Of a stretch of 64,000 nt of DNA, positions 37,734 through 44,627 are shown piece by piece (the stretch's first letter is position 1; every line of letters begins with the position of its first letter). The stretch covers positions 434,001 to 498,000 of the forward strand of contig NZ_CP032098.1 in the NCBI RefSeq assembly GCF_003544935.1, given 5' to 3'. This stretch comes from Malaciobacter molluscorum LMG 25693. GTDB lineage: Bacteria; Campylobacterota; Campylobacteria; Campylobacterales; Arcobacteraceae. A program made the translations under genes and the position numbers. The notes below the pieces were generated by a model. It searched no databases. It was not told the origin of the DNA and saw only the letters and a program-made list of their open reading frames with translations.

Positions 37734-38546
37734 ATGAGAATAGCTTTTATTGGTGATATTGTAGGCAGGCCAGGACGTAAAATAATTAAAGAAAATCTAA
37801 AAAAGATAATCGAAGAATACTCTTTAGATTTTGTAATAGCAAATGCAGAAAATGCATCACATGGATTTGGTCTTACTATAAAAAACTGTGATGAACTTTT
37901 AAAAAGTGGAATAGATATTATTACAGGAGGTAATCATTCATTTGATAAAAAAAAGGAGATGATAACCTTACTTGAAACAAAACCTGTATTAAGACCTGAT
38001 AATTATCCTGAAGGCTTAGTTGGAACGGGTATAAAAATTGTAAATGTAAATAATGAAAAATTAGCAATTATTAACTTAATGGGACAATTTGCAATGCCAA
38101 CAGTTGAAAATCCTTTTAATTGGGCAAAAAAGCTTGTTTTTTCTTTGCATGAGCAGGGTGTAAAAAATATTTTTATAGATTTTCATGGTGAAGCAACTAG
38201 TGAGAAAAGAGTTATTTTTATGATGTTAAAAAATCAAGTAAGTGCAATTTGTGGTACACATACTCATGTTGGAACAGATGATTTACAAATTATGGATAAT
38301 ACTGCTTATTTAACTGATATTGGATTAACAGGTTGCAGAGATAATGTAATTGGAATGGATAGCAAAGTTCCAATTGAAAAAGCTACTACTGGTTTAGGTG
38401 GACATTTTCAAGTACCAAATAGTTGTAAAAGTATATTGCAAATGATGGTAATTGATATTGAAGATGGAAAAGCAATTAATGCATTTAAAATAAAAAAATT
38501 TTGTGATATAAAAGAGCTGATAATTACTAATGCAATCTTTAACTAA
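37734..38546 (+). CDS. YmdB-family metallophosphoesterase
   Basis: A 270-residue cytoplasmic phosphodiesterase (TIGR00282/YmdB). Metal-binding motifs are GDIVGRPG (D8), NAENASHG (N40), TGGNHSFDKK (N67, H68), DFHGEATSEK and GTHTHVGTDD. In Bacillus YmdB hydrolyses cyclic nucleotide phosphodiesters (2',3'- and 3',5'-cNMP) and influences biofilm and motility decisions. The length is usual for the family. It overlaps the magIII gene by 17 bp. A 160-bp AT-rich gap upstream, shared with the BCCT gene, should hold both promoters. Confidence 0.92.
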   Translation: MRIAFIGDIVGRPGRKIIKENLKKIIEEYSLDFVIANAENASHGFGLTIKNCDELLKSGIDIITGGNHSFDKKKEMITLLETKPVLRPDNYPEGLVGTGIKIVNVNNEKLAIINLMGQFAMPTVENPFNWAKKLVFSLHEQGVKNIFIDFHGEATSEKRVIFMMLKNQVSAICGTHTHVGTDDLQIMDNTAYLTDIGLTGCRDNVIGMDSKVPIEKATTGLGGHFQVPNSCKSILQMMVIDIEDGKAINAFKIKKFCDIKELIITNAIFN

Positions 38547-39171
38547 TTCTTATGATCTTTTAAAGTTCTTAAAAGAACAAAATTTTATTAAAAAAAAGCC
38601 AACTTATTGGTGGCCAAGTTCAAATGATTTTGAAATATTAGTAGGTGCGATATTAACGCAAAATACAAAATGGATTAATGTAGAAAAATCTCTTGAGAAT
38701 TTAAAAAAACTTAATTATTTAACTTTAGAAAATTTAGCTAATAGTGATATTATTATATTAACAAATGCAATTGCTCCAAGTGGTTTTAAAAATCAAAAAG
38801 CAAAACGTTTAAAACTTTTATGTAAAAATATTATTCATGAATTTGGAAGTTTTGAATATTTTCAAAAAAGTGTTTCTTCTTCATGGCTTCTTGCACAAAA
38901 AGGAATAGGACAAGAAACAAAAGATGCAATTATGTGTTATGCTTGTCATCAAGATTATATGGTAGTTGATAAATATACAGCTAGACTTTTAAAAAGATTT
39001 AATTACGAATTTGACACATATGATGATATACAGACATGGCTAGTATATGGAATTAATGAAAATTTCGATAAAATAAAAAAGCTTTATGGTTATGAAATCT
39101 CATTAAATGAAGTTTATTGTAGATTTCATGGCAAAATTGTCGAATTTATGAAACGAAATCCAAAGGATTAA
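38530..39171 (+). CDS. magIII: 3-methyladenine DNA glycosylase, MagIII type
   Basis: A 213-residue helix-hairpin-helix DNA glycosylase of the endonuclease III superfamily that lacks the iron-sulfur cysteines. It matches Helicobacter MagIII as I remember it: WWPSSNDFEILVGAILTQNTKW near the N-terminus, SGFKNQKAKRLKLLC, the HhH segment LLAQKGIGQETKDAIMCYAC, VVDKYTARLLKRF (with the catalytic aspartate and a lysine known to be carbamylated in the Helicobacter enzyme), and RFHGKIVEF at the C-terminus. It removes N3-methyladenine from DNA, starting base-excision repair. The ATG at 38530 lies inside ymdB. Confidence 0.88.
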   Translation: MQSLTNSYDLLKFLKEQNFIKKKPTYWWPSSNDFEILVGAILTQNTKWINVEKSLENLKKLNYLTLENLANSDIIILTNAIAPSGFKNQKAKRLKLLCKNIIHEFGSFEYFQKSVSSSWLLAQKGIGQETKDAIMCYACHQDYMVVDKYTARLLKRFNYEFDTYDDIQTWLVYGINENFDKIKKLYGYEISLNEVYCRFHGKIVEFMKRNPKD

Positions 39172-39174
39172 TTG

Positions 39175-39966
39175 ATGATTATAATTCCACAAACTAAAGG
39201 TGGAGTAGGTAAATCTACTGTTGCAATGCAAGTAATTGCTCCTTACCTTTACAAAAAACATGGTAAAAAAATCAGATATATTGAAATAGATGATGAGAAT
39301 AATGATAGTAGGTCTTTTACAAGAACAGAAATAGTTGATAAGCAAATGTTAGGTACAAATAAATTATCAGATTTAGATGAACTTATGCTTATGGATGACA
39401 ATCATGAAATAATTGTTGATGTAGGTGGAAATAAAACATCTTCATTAGTTTTAGAAGAGATCAAAAAAGTAGGTTCTTTTGGAAATGTAAAATGGATTAT
39501 TCCTTTAGGTGATGGTGAACTTGATGGAAAAAATGCAATTGCAACAATGAAAAAAATTAGAAAAATTGAAGAAAATCCAGAAAAAAATATGATATTTGCT
39601 TTAAATAGAGCTATATCTATGGAACCTGATTATATAGAAGAACAATTTATTAATTTTTTTGGACATAAATATTTAGATAGTAATTCTGCACTATATGATT
39701 TTGTAAAAAGTCCAAAATACTTTCCTGTTAAAAATGATAAAATTATCACAATGAGTAGATATTTGGGAAGTACAGTTTGGGAAATGGCTTATAATAATAC
39801 TGATTTTGGAACAAAAGCAGTACAAGCAAAAGAGTTGGGTGATGTGGAAAGTGCTAGAAAATATCTATTTTTTAGAAGAATACAAACTGAAGCAAAAGAT
39901 TATGTTTTAGGAACATTAAATAGAATCTTTCATGATTTAGATAGATGGATTGAAATTAAAAAATGA
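39175..39966 (+). CDS. ParA/MinD-like P-loop ATPase
   Basis: A 263-residue ATPase with the deviant Walker A motif KGGVGKS (8-14) of the ParA/MinD/MipZ superfamily, preceded by a strand (MIIIPQT). Segments that follow the fold are YIEIDDENND, IIVDVGGNKTSSL (Walker B-like) and WIIPLGDGELDG. I prefer ATG 39175 to TTG 39172 because of the spacing to AAGGA. No HTH or MTS is obvious. It overlaps the next gene, a small coiled-coil membrane protein, by 4 bp, which suggests a two-component positioning module. Relatives include plasmid TraL-type ATPases and chromosomal ParA-like proteins that place chemoreceptors or secretion machines; this one has no parB or conjugation genes around it. Confidence 0.8.
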   Translation: MIIIPQTKGGVGKSTVAMQVIAPYLYKKHGKKIRYIEIDDENNDSRSFTRTEIVDKQMLGTNKLSDLDELMLMDDNHEIIVDVGGNKTSSLVLEEIKKVGSFGNVKWIIPLGDGELDGKNAIATMKKIRKIEENPEKNMIFALNRAISMEPDYIEEQFINFFGHKYLDSNSALYDFVKSPKYFPVKNDKIITMSRYLGSTVWEMAYNNTDFGTKAVQAKELGDVESARKYLFFRRIQTEAKDYVLGTLNRIFHDLDRWIEIKK

Positions 39967-40232
39967 GTGAAATGAGCTTTAAACAAGCCAAAGAAATAGT
40001 TGAAAGGCTTGAGTTTTCAGAACTAGCACTTCGAAAATCATTTAAAGATATTAATACATCAACAAAAGCATTAAAAGACTCTTCAACCGTATTTGAAAAG
40101 TCTTTAGAAAAGCAAAAAATCATAATATCTCAAATACCAAAAATGAATAAAAAAATAAGTATTTTAAGATCATTAATAATGATAAATATTGGTTTTATTT
40201 TGGGATTATTTGTGGGAAAATTTTTATTATAA
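39963..40232 (+). CDS. small coiled-coil protein with C-terminal membrane anchor, partner of the ParA-like ATPase
   Basis: An 89-residue protein. Residues 4-60 are strongly helical with heptad-like spacing (RLEFSELALRKSFKDI, LKDSSTVFEKSLEKQ). Residues 68-88 form a hydrophobic anchor (RSLIMINIGFILGLFVGKFLL), so the N-terminal part should face the cytoplasm. It starts 4 bp inside the ATPase gene (ATGA) and is 13 bp from ubiE. I know no family for it. Tail-anchored coiled coils can serve as membrane receptors for ParA-type ATPases, and this is the inferred role. Confidence 0.7.
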   Translation: MSEMSFKQAKEIVERLEFSELALRKSFKDINTSTKALKDSSTVFEKSLEKQKIIISQIPKMNKKISILRSLIMINIGFILGLFVGKFLL

Positions 40233-40245
40233 TTTAGGAAAATGA

Positions 40246-40956
40246 ATGGGTAAACAAGAAAAAATTGTATCAATGTTTAATGATATTTCAGGTAAGTATG
40301 ATATAGCAAATAGAGTAATTAGTATGGGAATTGATAAAAGTTGGAGAAATAAAGCTTGTAAGTTAGCATTTGATTTTTATAATCAAAAAACAGTTGAAAA
40401 GATTGTTGATGTTGCTTGTGGTACAGGTGATATGATAACTTTTTGGCAAAAAGTTGCAAAAGAGAATAATATACAATTACAAAATATAATTGGAGTTGAT
40501 CCAAGTGTGGGAATGATGGATGTTGCAAAGAAAAAACTTCCAGAAGTTGAATTTATTGAAGCAGGTGCAGCTAGCATGCCTTTAGAAAACTCAAGTGCTG
40601 ATATTATTTCTATTTCATATGGAATTAGAAATGTTGTTCAAAGACAAGAAGCATTTCATGAGTTTGCAAGAGTTTTAAAACAAAATGGATTAGTTGTAAT
40701 TAGTGAATTTACGAAAAATGAAAAAAATTCACCAATAGATTATTTAACTGATTTTTATATTAATAAAATCTTACCAACACTAGGTGGAATTATTACAAAA
40801 AATAAAGAAGCTTATACTTATTTACCAAATTCAATTGATGAATTTTTAACAACTACAAACTTATGTAAAGAGTTAAAAGAAGCTGGACTAGAGCCAATCT
40901 ATACAAAAGCTTTTTCTATGAATATTTCTACTTTAATAATAGCAAGAAAAATTTAA
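40246..40956 (+). CDS. ubiE: demethylmenaquinone / ubiquinone methyltransferase UbiE (MenG)
   Basis: A 236-residue SAM-dependent methyltransferase. Motif I is VDVACGTGDM (about 53-62), motif II contains IGVDPSVGMMDVAKKKLP, and ISYGIRNV and the C-terminal ISTLIIARKI are UbiE/COQ5 signatures. In menaquinone-using Campylobacterota it would methylate demethylmenaquinone, the last step of menaquinone synthesis. The ATG at 40246 follows TTAGGA. A terminator-like hairpin follows before xseA, the usual neighbour in Campylobacter as I recall. Confidence 0.95.
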   Translation: MGKQEKIVSMFNDISGKYDIANRVISMGIDKSWRNKACKLAFDFYNQKTVEKIVDVACGTGDMITFWQKVAKENNIQLQNIIGVDPSVGMMDVAKKKLPEVEFIEAGAASMPLENSSADIISISYGIRNVVQRQEAFHEFARVLKQNGLVVISEFTKNEKNSPIDYLTDFYINKILPTLGGIITKNKEAYTYLPNSIDEFLTTTNLCKELKEAGLEPIYTKAFSMNISTLIIARKI

Positions 40957-40992: not shown

Positions 40993-42180
40993 ATGAACGC
41001 ACCAATTACAGTTACTTCTCTTAGTACACAAATAAAATCTTTATTAGAAACTACATTTATGGATGTTTATGTTGAAGGTGAAATCTCAAACTTAACATAT
41101 CATAGTTCAGGACATATTTATTTCTCTATAAAAGATGATAAATCTACAATGTCTTGTGTGATGTTTAGAGGAAATACAAAATATTTAAAATTTAAATTAG
41201 AAGTTGGATTAAAAATAAATATTAGAGGTAGTTTAACTGTATATACTCCAAGAGGTAGTTATCAATTAATTTGTAATAGAATCGAGCCTTCAGGTCAAGG
41301 TGCATTGGCTTTAGCATATGAGCAGTTAAAAGAGAAATTAAAACAAAAAGGTTATTTTGACCCTTCAATTAAAAAAAATTTGCCAAAATATCCTAAAAAA
41401 ATTGCATTAGTAACATCGCCTACTGGTGCAGCTATTCAAGACATGTTAAAAGTAGCAAATCATAGATGGAATTTAGTTGAGTTTATTTTAGTTCCAACTT
41501 TAGTTCAAGGCGAAACAGCAAAAGATGATATAGCAAAATCGATAAAATATGCAGATACTCTTAATTGTGATATTATTATTGTTGGAAGAGGTGGTGGAAG
41601 TATTGAGGATTTATGGGCTTTTAATGAAGAAATAGTTGCAAATGCAATATATGAAGCACAAACTGTAATAATTTCAGCAGTTGGACATGAAGTTGATTTT
41701 TTGATTTCTGATTTTGTTGCAGATGTTAGAGCTGCAACTCCTTCTAATGCAATAGAAATAGCACTTCCCGATACTAATGAACATAGAATATATATAGATA
41801 CTTTAACACAAGATTTTGAAAATAGATTAAAAAATATATTATATTCAAAAGAGCAAAATATAATTCATTTAAAAAGAATGTATGAACAAAACTCTATTGA
41901 AACAAAATTTAATTTAATATCTTCAGAAATTAAAATGTTAAAATTAAGTTTTGATAATAGATTTTCTAATATTTTAAATAGTTGTCAAAATAGTATAAGT
42001 TTATTAAAAAATTCTTTTGAACATAATAGCCCAGAAAAAAAACATAAAAAAGGTTTTGTTCAAATAAGTAAAGACAATAAAATAATTGAATTAGAAAATA
42101 TAAATATTGGTGACAATATATCTTTACAAACCCCTACACATATAGCAAACGCAAAAATTGAAAATATAAAAAAACAATAA
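40993..42180 (+). CDS. xseA: exodeoxyribonuclease VII large subunit
   Basis: A 395-residue nuclease subunit. The N-terminal OB fold (about 1-100) contains VEGEISNLTYHSSGHIYFSIKD, and the catalytic domain has ALVTSPTGAAIQDML and IIVGRGGGSIEDLWAFNEE, followed by SAVGHEVDF. A coiled-coil region (about 265-340) is shorter than in E. coli (456 residues), as in other Campylobacterota. It ends with a small C-terminal strand region, KKGFVQISKDNKIIELENI. With XseB it degrades single-stranded DNA in both directions. No xseB is visible next to it in this window. Confidence 0.94.
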   Translation: MNAPITVTSLSTQIKSLLETTFMDVYVEGEISNLTYHSSGHIYFSIKDDKSTMSCVMFRGNTKYLKFKLEVGLKINIRGSLTVYTPRGSYQLICNRIEPSGQGALALAYEQLKEKLKQKGYFDPSIKKNLPKYPKKIALVTSPTGAAIQDMLKVANHRWNLVEFILVPTLVQGETAKDDIAKSIKYADTLNCDIIIVGRGGGSIEDLWAFNEEIVANAIYEAQTVIISAVGHEVDFLISDFVADVRAATPSNAIEIALPDTNEHRIYIDTLTQDFENRLKNILYSKEQNIIHLKRMYEQNSIETKFNLISSEIKMLKLSFDNRFSNILNSCQNSISLLKNSFEHNSPEKKHKKGFVQISKDNKIIELENINIGDNISLQTPTHIANAKIENIKKQ

Positions 42181-42365: not shown

Positions 42366-42860
42366 ATGGAAAAAAATTTAAATAATGATGAGCAAGATGT
42401 AATTGATTACGCAAATAGTAGTGAGTATATGACATTTGAACTTGGGGCAATGAAGTATGCAATTGAATTACCAAAAATTAGGGAAATTTTAACTTATCCC
42501 GATATTATTACTCATTTACCAAACACAGAAGATTGGGTAAAAGGGCTTATTAATTTAAGAGGTGAAGTTGTTCCTATTTTAGATATTAGAATTAAATTTA
42601 ATACAGGTGAACCAATTTATGATTCAAATACTGCTGTAATTGCAGTTATTACTGAAGATAAAAGAATGATTGGTATTATTGTAGATAAAGTTGATGATGT
42701 TCAAAGATTAGATACTTCTGCTTTGGCACCAGTTTCTGATATGGGTTCTGCAATTCCATCTAAATATTTAAAAGGTTTTGTAAGATTAGAAAATAATCAG
42801 ATGCTTGTAATTATGGATATTGAATCAGTTGTACATAAAGATGAATTAAAAGATACATAA
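42366..42860 (+). CDS. cheW: chemotaxis adaptor CheW
   Basis: A 164-residue single CheW/SH3-like domain that links chemoreceptors to the kinase CheA. Conserved stretches are YAIELPKIREIL, the GLINLRGEVVPILDIR segment that contacts receptors, and GIIVDKVDDVQRL. A short acidic N-terminal extension (about 1-18) precedes the domain. The ribosome site AAGGAG precedes the ATG. It is followed, with 1-bp and 14-bp overlaps, by two REC-domain proteins, so the three form a chemotaxis-related operon without cheA. Confidence 0.95.
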   Translation: MEKNLNNDEQDVIDYANSSEYMTFELGAMKYAIELPKIREILTYPDIITHLPNTEDWVKGLINLRGEVVPILDIRIKFNTGEPIYDSNTAVIAVITEDKRMIGIIVDKVDDVQRLDTSALAPVSDMGSAIPSKYLKGFVRLENNQMLVIMDIESVVHKDELKDT

Positions 42861-43264
42861 TGCAAAAAAAAATAGAGAAACTTAGAAAGTTGAAGCTTCT
42901 TTTTGTTGAAGATGAAAAAGATTTAATTGAAATTATATCTGATACGTTAAGAAAATTAGAAGCTAACTTTTTAACTGCTCATAATGGTAAAGAAGCACTT
43001 GATTTAGTAGAACAAAATGATGATATAGATGCAATAATTACTGATATTAATATGCCAATATTAAATGGAATAGAGATGATAAAAATTCTAAAAGATAAAA
43101 AACCATATCTTCCAGTGATTATTATGTCTGCTCATACAGAGAATGAATATAGACAAAAAGCTAATGAATATGGTGTTAAAGACTATTTATTAAAACCTTT
43201 TGATTTTATTAAATTTATTGATCTAATAACTTCAATGAAATTAGGTAAAAATGGCAATAAATAA
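42860..43264 (+). CDS. stand-alone REC response regulator in chemotaxis operon
   Basis: A 134-residue single receiver domain. The acidic pocket is E17/D18/E19, the phosphoacceptor is D62 in IITDINMPILNG, and the conserved lysine is K112 in YLLKPFDF. There is no output domain. The first residues (MQKKIEKLRKLK) extend the fold. It starts on the last base of cheW, so its expression is tied to CheW. It may act like CheY or as a phosphate sink; the INMP/LLKPF pattern resembles hybrid-type REC domains more than classical CheY. Confidence 0.9.
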   Translation: MQKKIEKLRKLKLLFVEDEKDLIEIISDTLRKLEANFLTAHNGKEALDLVEQNDDIDAIITDINMPILNGIEMIKILKDKKPYLPVIIMSAHTENEYRQKANEYGVKDYLLKPFDFIKFIDLITSMKLGKNGNK

Positions 43265-44627
43265 AGAAGTATTGAAAAGACTTAAAGCTTTATATATTGA
43301 AGATGATGATACCATAAGAAAAGAATTATCTGCACTATTATCTAACTTTTTTGGCAAAATATATATTGCCAAAGATGGAAAAGATGGATTAGAACAATAT
43401 TTAAAAAATAGTGATGATATTGATGTAATTATATCTGATATTAATATGCCATATTTAACTGGTATAGAAATGGTAAAAAAAATAAGAGAAATAAATAAAA
43501 AAGTACCTGTAATTTTTACTACTGCATATTCAGATAATCAATTTTTAGCTGATGCAATAAAATTAAAAGTTTATGAATATATTATAAAACCAATAGATAT
43601 TAGAAATTTATTAGTTGTGTTAAATGAACTTGCAACTATTTTATATCAAGAAGAATTGATAAATAAACAAACATTAGAATTAGAAAAATTTAAAGATGTA
43701 ATTGATACTAATAATATTGTAATTAAAACTGATGAAAATATGAATATAGTTTATGTAAATGAACTTTTTTGTAAAACTACAGAATTTTTAAAAGAAGAAT
43801 TAATAGGGAAAGAACTATCTTTTTTAAGGCATAATGATACAGATATAAAAATATATAAAGATATTTATGAAAGTGTAGAAGTTAATAAACAGTGGAAAGG
43901 TAGAATAAAAAATATTACAAAAGAGGGTGGATATTATGTAAGTGATACTTATATAATTACTACAACAAATGATAATAATCAAGTTACAGGTTCAATTTGT
44001 GTTCAAAATGATATAACAGATGAATTGAATAAAAAAAGAGAAATACAAAAAGCACTGATTAAAGATAAAGGTGATATTTTTATTAAAAGTAAAGCAGGTA
44101 GTGCTGAACAAACTGTAACTATTAATAATTTGAGATATGACATAGAAGAATTAAAAACTACAGTAAAAAAATTAAAAGCAGAAAGAGATAAATCTTTATA
44201 TAAAATAGATAATCTAAACAAAGAGAATAAAAAATTAAGAAGTGAATTAGGTTATCAAAAAAGTATAGAACAAAAAAATAAATTAGATAATGCATTTACT
44301 TTAAAAGCTAGTAAAGAAAATGTTGATCTCAAAATTCAAGTAAAAAAACTTAATGCAAAGATAGAAGATACGGTTGAGTTTTATGAAAAAAAATGTAAAC
44401 AGCTTGAAGTAAATGCACAAATGGAAATAGAAGATTTAGAACAAGAATTACATGATATAAAAACAAAACTTGGAAAAATTGATAATGCTGAGATGATGAC
44501 TCAAAAAATTGAGTATTGGAAAGAAAAAGCAAAAAGTGAATCAAAAAGAGCTGAAAAAATGGAAAAAGAGATTATGAAAAGTTCTGACAAGAGTCTAATG
44601 GATAAAATATTTTCTCTTACTAAATAA
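43251..44627 (+). CDS. REC-PAS-coiled-coil protein in chemotaxis operon
   Basis: A 458-residue cytoplasmic protein. The N-terminal REC domain (8-125) has D63 in IISDINMPYLTG and K112 in YIIKPIDI. A PAS domain follows (about 150-255; NIVIKTDENMNIVYVNELFC and GSICVQNDITDE). Residues about 260-445 are a long coiled coil (LRYDIEELKTTVKKLKAERD and similar). There is no kinase, GGDEF, EAL or DNA-binding domain, so the output would be through protein contacts. It overlaps the upstream REC gene by 14 bp. It could be a phosphorylation-controlled scaffold for the chemotaxis array or for polar structures. Confidence 0.88.
   Translation: MAINKEVLKRLKALYIEDDDTIRKELSALLSNFFGKIYIAKDGKDGLEQYLKNSDDIDVIISDINMPYLTGIEMVKKIREINKKVPVIFTTAYSDNQFLADAIKLKVYEYIIKPIDIRNLLVVLNELATILYQEELINKQTLELEKFKDVIDTNNIVIKTDENMNIVYVNELFCKTTEFLKEELIGKELSFLRHNDTDIKIYKDIYESVEVNKQWKGRIKNITKEGGYYVSDTYIITTTNDNNQVTGSICVQNDITDELNKKREIQKALIKDKGDIFIKSKAGSAEQTVTINNLRYDIEELKTTVKKLKAERDKSLYKIDNLNKENKKLRSELGYQKSIEQKNKLDNAFTLKASKENVDLKIQVKKLNAKIEDTVEFYEKKCKQLEVNAQMEIEDLEQELHDIKTKLGKIDNAEMMTQKIEYWKEKAKSESKRAEKMEKEIMKSSDKSLMDKIFSLTK

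Follow-up and report, generated by a model that had tools for sequence, protein, structure and literature searches.

The window analysed here, a stretch of 64,000 nucleotides from the single 2.80-Mb contig of Malaciobacter molluscorum LMG 25693, carries a pair of overlapping genes on its plus strand. The first (39175..39966) encodes an ATPase of 263 aa, which its reading frame, profile matches and structure comparison place in a StbB/TraL-like lineage of the ParA/MinD superfamily. Its start is the ATG at 39175, with an in-frame TTG at 39172 immediately 5', and its deviant Walker A motif (KGGVGKS, residues K8 to S14, 39196..39216) is invariant in 15 aligned orthologues. The second gene (39963..40232) shares 4 bp (ATGA) with the first and encodes a protein of 89 aa made of a conserved N-terminal helix, a heptad coil and a C-terminal membrane helix, as seen from its reading frame, profile and model. 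Both reading frames and their overlap had been recognised in an earlier note on this DNA and lie where it had put them.

The pair is embedded in a series of closely spaced genes that share one strand. Upstream lie ymdB, which codes for a YmdB-like phosphoesterase and is the conserved flank on this side (37734..38546), and a gene for an HhH-GPD (Nth-like) protein (38530..39171), which ends 3 bp before the ATPase start and is missing in some relatives. Downstream, ubiE (40246..40956), the other conserved flank, begins 13 bp 3' of the small gene and is followed by xseA (40993..42180). A further cluster starts 185 bp past xseA, on the same strand and 2.1-4.4 kb downstream of the pair; it consists of cheW (42366..42860), a gene for a single-domain response regulator (42860..43264) and one for a response regulator with a PAS domain (43251..44627). 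The earlier note had rightly remarked that no parB, min, flagellar or conjugation genes adjoin the pair, and had missed this cheW cluster. Within the neighbourhood, we found none of parB, minE or minC, flhF or other flagellar genes beside it, nor any stbA, oriT, mob gene, relaxase or T4SS; its neighbours are ymdB, nth, ubiE and xseA.

The ATPase and its membrane-anchored partner

The ParA fold together with the deviant Walker A motif makes the ATPase a member of the ParA/MinD superfamily. The AlphaFold model of the protein (pLDDT 88.9) ends in a long helix (residues 224-258) and is closest in structure to ParF (Z 19.6, rmsd 3.0, 197 aligned), followed by FleN, FlhG, MinD and Soj. MinD and FlhG/FleN, at Z 16-17, share its fold, although neither minE nor flhF neighbours the pair; unlike ParAB partition ATPases, it also has no parB-like neighbour. 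No StbB or TraL chains are among the PDB structure matches listed for the model, which excludes nothing, and a PDB sequence search returned nothing significant. Among curated families, StbB (NCBIfam NF041292) matched the ATPase best, over residues 1-242 (34 bits, E 1.9e-8), far under the curated cut-off of 200 bits, and membership of that family was rejected. The TraL profile gave 19.7 bits against 360, Pfam AAA_31 gave 26.2 and 27.1 bits in two scans (cut-off 27), and a PHROGs search gave only a ParA-like partition family (E 4.5e-5). Scanning the window genome with AAA_31 (E<=0.001) yielded six places, which read by sequence as ParA, FlhG, Mrp, a NifH-like protein, the pair's ATPase and an SRP-type GTPase; no MinD was recognised among the six.

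The small protein had been described as a coiled coil ending in a membrane helix, a description that our analysis supports. The heptad signal of the window's copy exceeds that of shuffled sequences (p=0.001) and, over 73 distinct orthologues, reaches a mean of 0.535 compared with a shuffled mean of 0.208 (sd 0.086). The C-terminus is hydrophobic, with a best 19-residue Kyte-Doolittle mean of 2.26 from residue 71, and contains the predicted membrane helix ILRSLIMINIGFILGLFVGKFLL (40161..40229), while AlphaFold models the protein as one helix spanning residues 3-88 (pLDDT 80.9). Most of the 73 orthologues are 82 aa long (n=58), the others 89 aa (n=13) or 83 aa (n=2), so that the two main lengths differ by exactly one heptad. 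Conservation is uneven, with a mean column identity of 87% in the first 20 residues (MSEMSFKQAKEIVERLEFSE; 39963..40022), 47% in the middle and 65% in the tail. The partner is thus a helical protein with heptads that looks tail-anchored and whose N-terminal helix is strongly conserved. By analogy with the partner proteins of other ParA/MinD ATPases, as the available text of PMC10241942 presents them, this N-terminal segment is a candidate for binding the ATPase.

Conservation and loss within Arcobacteraceae

The ATPase was found in 95 of 104 Arcobacteraceae genomes, and these same 95 also have the small protein; the two genes lie no more than 30 bp apart in all 95 carriers. Consequently, the pair is not a chance arrangement, and the co-occurrence of the two genes that had been at issue is strict within the family. 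Identity to the window's copies is 79-98% for intact ATPases and 41-98% for the small proteins. At 20/20 Arcobacteraceae loci examined, the gene order ymdB-nth-pair-ubiE-xseA is the same (nth missing in some), and 14 of these loci have cheW inside the examined stretch. When 398 genomes of the order were searched, the small-protein profile gave strong matches in 43, all of them Arcobacteraceae, and no match below E 1e-4 among the 351 sampled genomes outside the family; matches at E 2e-4 to 7e-3 in nine of the outside genomes were counted as noise. The ATPase profile, on the other hand, matched 78 of the 398 genomes at E<=1e-20, 43 inside Arcobacteraceae and 35 outside. Of the two genes, it is the small one that is confined to the Arcobacteraceae clade, so chemotaxis in other families of the order does without it.

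Nine of the 104 family genomes lack the pair. One of them, G018, is 54% complete, and its contig breaks off just before ubiE. The remaining eight (G037-G040, G045, G048, G071 and G097) are 88-100% complete, and each of them has preserved the ymdB(-nth)-ubiE locus except for the pair; in G097, nth stays between the flanks and cheW is gone from the same locus along with the pair. Domain and profile searches of these eight genomes detected no CheW-domain protein, flagellar rod protein, CheA or FlhA in any of them. The CheW-domain and rod tests covered 25 genomes, namely the nine pair-less ones, G098 and 15 other carriers, and all 15 carriers have both markers (one to eight matches each). Across the family, CheA is absent from 12 and FlhA from 11 of the 104 genomes. 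Neither is present in G098, where the ATPase is in two fragments and cheW is broken, nor in G049, where an internal deletion leaves an ATPase of 232 aa; G075, also without CheA, is 61% complete. A true exception is G053 (97% complete), which has an intact pair, no CheA, an FlhA fragment and one rod match. Since G001 (100% complete, 3.0 Mb) keeps the pair and CheA with three rod matches and no FlhA, flagella cannot be cleanly told apart from chemotaxis. The pattern is not due to genome reduction alone, as G045 lacks the pair at 2.9 Mb yet chemotaxis-bearing genomes of 1.5-1.9 Mb (G052, G070, G101 and G103) retain it.

The association was also assessed on a ubiE+ymdB tree holding 60 of the 104 genomes, 58 of which were scored (G018 and G075 were dropped; 44 lie outside the tree). 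On this tree the gene pair changes five times and CheA six times. In the five independent pairs of the trait test, the changes go in the same direction 4.6 times on average and in the opposite direction 0 times (median p 0.0625, five such pairs allowing no lower value); counting outright absence alone gives 3.2/5 (p 0.25). Independent losses thus number only about five, many genomes are fragmented, and the four g6 genomes represent a single event, possibly in a lineage that never had the pair. The link of the pair to motility is nonetheless well supported; the counts behind it are strong, the number of independent events modest. The two genes form a genuine, conserved module of Arcobacteraceae that is tied either to chemotaxis or to flagellar motility. 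Because it is lost or broken mostly where flagella and chemotaxis are lost, it probably helps place the sensing or swimming machinery, and its cargo plausibly sits at the pole.

The same genomes bear on the identity of the small gene. With xseA two genes downstream and a weak match to PF02609 (17.7 bits), it could be read as xseB, the gene for the exonuclease VII small subunit, with the ATPase as an unrelated neighbour. We regard this as extremely improbable, given that the match lies below the 24-bit cut-off while a real xseB-type match of 38.2 bits is found elsewhere in the genome, that the small protein has a membrane helix, and that it is lost together with the ATPase while xseA stays in four of the eight pair-less genomes (G045, G048, G071 and G097). 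The g6 stretches contain no xseA match.

Relatives in chemotaxis operons and on plasmids

Outside the family, 20 loci drawn from the 35 matching genomes were examined over stretches of 7-10.5 kb, and 12 of them have chemotaxis genes inside the stretch. Some show direct adjacency, in the orders CheR-ATPase-X-CheB or CheD-ATPase-CheB. The ATPase gene of families f9, f12 and f16 follows cheR or cheD and precedes cheB, in some cases with an unknown protein of about 300 aa between. Examples checked with Pfam contain CheR, CheB and CheD and, in f18, a cytoplasmic MCP with a CZB domain; other relatives of the ATPase stand beside chemoreceptors (MCP), CheV and CheW. The chemotaxis-linked relatives include Sulfurimonas, Sulfuricurvum and Nitratiruptor MAGs. 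Chemotaxis genes are likewise present at seven of nine named non-mobile, non-Arcobacter loci, four of the nine being on contigs already counted. No flagellar genes were recognised beside the chemotaxis-type relatives at the loci examined. As for the small gene, whose presence beside homologues of the ATPase the earlier note had made a test of its proposal, it accompanies the ATPase throughout the Arcobacteraceae carriers and is absent beside the relatives in chemotaxis operons.

The protein encoded between the ATPase and CheB genes measures 297-312 aa (L166:5384-6301; also L165, L167, L186, L187 and L090) and has no Pfam match in L166, the copy checked; further genes lie between in L167 and L187. 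It is a candidate partner of the chemotaxis-type ATPase. Relatives of the Thiovulum type (f23; L156, L159, L160, L162 and L163) are chromosomal and occur in varying contexts. The f23 loci have no chemotaxis neighbours and no membrane-helix partner like that of the pair, and provide no functional lead.

These operons help to choose between two cargoes. FlhA and the rod proteins disappear along with the pair just as CheA does, and Arcobacter flagellar genes are described in the available text of PMC9321776 as strongly rearranged compared with other Campylobacterota, as might suit a pair that serves the flagellum and not the array, placing or counting polar flagella alongside FlhF/FlhG. However, relatives of the ATPase are found in CheR/CheD/CheB operons and beside MCP, CheV and CheW with no recognised flagellar genes, G001 retains the pair and CheA without FlhA, and the window genome already has an FlhG-like protein (own_L002; named from its sequence). 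We therefore consider a purely flagellar role unlikely. It is very unlikely, for its part, that the ATPase is a Get3-like chaperone or targeting factor for a tail-anchored partner whose own role lies elsewhere. The P-loop fold is related, the partner looks tail-anchored and Get3 chains do appear in the Foldseek list for the model, but lower than ParF, FleN, FlhG and MinD; StbB and TraL, its nearest described relatives, are proteins of plasmid transfer, and the chemotaxis-operon relatives have no such partner alongside.

The earlier note knew of no description of such a pair. That the pair is without parallel is not supported, since the same layout occurs on plasmids. On R388 (IncW), as in our pair, the ATPase StbB, whose profile covers nearly the whole of the pair's ATPase, comes before StbC (128 aa), which is helical and has a hydrophobic helix at its C-terminus. 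On R751 (IncP), the ParA-like ATPase TraL overlaps TraM, a protein of 146 aa with a C-terminal hydrophobic helix. In both R388 stbC (L171:17602-17988) and R751 traM (L173:1947-2387) this helix comes after a helical, probably coiled region. Judging from these sequences, StbC and TraM may be membrane tethers for StbB and TraL. The available text of PMC3098194 reports that R388 needs StbB both for transfer and for its foci, which lie at the poles close to the membrane, and calls StbC an orphan without phenotype; the word 'transmembrane' does not occur in that paper.

The pair shares with these systems an ATPase gene followed directly by one for a helical protein with a C-terminal membrane helix. 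StbABC and TraKLM, however, are three-gene operons of the leading region, beside oriT and mobilisation genes, a layout that the pair's locus lacks. Unlike R388 StbABC, the pair is chromosomal, without stbA, oriT or mob genes; unlike the pair, R751 TraL-TraM has TraK and TraJ as neighbours. StbC is not detectably homologous to the small protein, and HHalign comparisons of the latter with 10 StbC/TraM-type partner groups gave probabilities of 0.2-11%, i.e., no detectable homology; among 121 control ORFs, three scored 100, 99.9 and 50.3%, the first two looking like unfiltered orthologues, and the next 4.6%. The TraM profile (NF010470) left the small protein unmatched while giving 236 bits with R751 TraM as control, and a search of plasmid records with the small protein returned no match. 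Consequently, only the architecture and the ATPase link the pair to plasmids.

In 72,556 plasmid records, the only match to the ATPase is that of Helicobacter cetorum pHCD (36.5% identity over 97%). As in the pair, its gene is followed, 4 bp later, by one for a coiled coil with a membrane helix; unlike the pair, it lies on a mobilisable plasmid beside mobC, and its partner is longer (164 aa), with residues past the membrane helix. In the ATPase tree, which left out own_L004, own_L005, own_L006 and f1para_L105, the pHCD ATPase is sister (98/91) to the core clade (100/100), on a long branch flagged by the tree program, while the chemotaxis-linked ATPases and the Thiovulum type form another clade (100/98). 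Paralogues within the family were examined at 20 loci, three of them in chemotaxis clusters. At 14 of the 20 the ATPase precedes a coiled coil with a membrane helix (weak in L093, 1.48), and at L106 such a protein is encoded upstream of the ATPase; paralogue loci with this partner are mostly mobile-looking stretches. In L102 and L103, likewise mobile-looking, the coiled-coil/membrane-helix gene is preceded by two ATPase genes in tandem (236-237 and 267 aa).

Such parallels, namely the StbB alignment over residues 1-242, the pHCD sister and the mobile-looking paralogue loci, speak for a domesticated StbBC/TraLM-type mobilisation module still acting on DNA or on a conjugation-like apparatus. We judge this decidedly unlikely in view of the fixed housekeeping locus with no relaxase, oriT-type partner or T4SS beside the pair, of the high identity of intact ATPase copies across the family and of a loss that tracks motility genes; moreover, the pHCD branch is long and the best HHalign probability between the small protein and plasmid partners is 11%. 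The suspicion that the ATPase might be a TraL-type remnant was right as to its StbB/TraL kind and wrong as to its state, the gene being a conserved, syntenic chromosomal core gene.

Literature searches on StbB and chemotaxis found nothing, and those on StbB/StbC, Arcobacter chemotaxis, ParA/MinD-like proteins, TraL/TraM and tail-anchored proteins found no described chromosomal pair in the texts available. The pair was not found mentioned in the accessible part of the A. butzleri genome paper (PMC2147049), and the whole words ParA, ParC, MinD, ATPase, PpfA and StbB are absent from PMC9321776.

A proposed positioning module

On balance, the pair is probably a vertically inherited chromosomal positioning module of Arcobacteraceae, for the chemosensory array or the polar flagellar apparatus. 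The idea that it joins a ParA-type ATPase to a membrane-tethered partner for placing something at the pole or mid-cell, already put forward in the earlier note, agrees with the ParA fold, the tether and a plausibly polar cargo; what we infer is the positioning mechanism itself and that the array is its cargo. The available texts of PMC10241942 and PMC5706961 describe ParC/ParP of Vibrio and PpfA of Rhodobacter as ATPase systems that position chemosensory proteins. Like ParC and PpfA, the pair's ParA-type ATPase is linked to chemotaxis genes, through co-loss and through the operons of its relatives, and the same cargo is proposed. Unlike in ParC/ParP, no ParP or CheW-fused partner lies beside the ATPase; a tail-anchored partner is found instead.

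In the proposed mechanism, the ATPase would dimerise on ATP, and the small partner would dimerise through its coil and use its C-terminal helix as an anchor in the inner membrane. The conserved N-terminal helix of the partner would bind the ATP-bound ATPase dimer and/or stimulate hydrolysis, and the ATPase would recruit its cargo to the membrane or move it along the membrane towards the pole. The chemosensory array would be the most likely cargo, in work resembling that of ParC and PpfA, with the polar flagellar apparatus as second candidate. The whole pair would act as StbB reportedly does for R388, a plasmid that needs StbB for its membrane-near foci at the poles. MinD has its own membrane helix. 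In contrast to MinD and FlhG, membrane attachment of the pair's ATPase is probably supplied by the small partner, the anchor of which would do the job of that helix.

A further scenario, which we put forward tentatively as possible rather than probable, is that a plasmid-type StbBC/TraLM pair of ATPase and membrane tether was taken over by the chromosome to position an acquired chemosensory array. According to the available text of PMC9321776, Arcobacter and Nitratiruptor are the two flagellated Campylobacterota genera without the F3 chemosensory class that is otherwise conserved in the phylum. In f18, the family containing Nitratiruptor, 19 genomes are matched by the ATPase profile. As the ATPase occurs in nearly all Arcobacteraceae and is widespread in the family of Nitratiruptor, lineages that took in a foreign array may also have needed a new positioning ATPase, and we hypothesise that such an ATPase goes with non-F3 arrays. 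In Arcobacteraceae, the tail-anchored partner would then take the place of a polar landmark or of a membrane helix in the ATPase itself.

If the pair is indeed a positioning module, membrane attachment in a positioning system would be entrusted to a separate protein of 82-89 aa, and the plasmid transfer ATPases StbB and TraL would be linked with chemotaxis ATPases, with a hint at the roles of StbC and TraM on plasmids. It would also provide a concrete candidate for how Arcobacter, with its ancestral chemosensory class lost and its flagellar genes rearranged, brings its array or flagellum into place. Its small size makes the pair amenable to reconstitution. G001, possibly a case of recent flagellar loss, is useful for telling the array from the flagellum.
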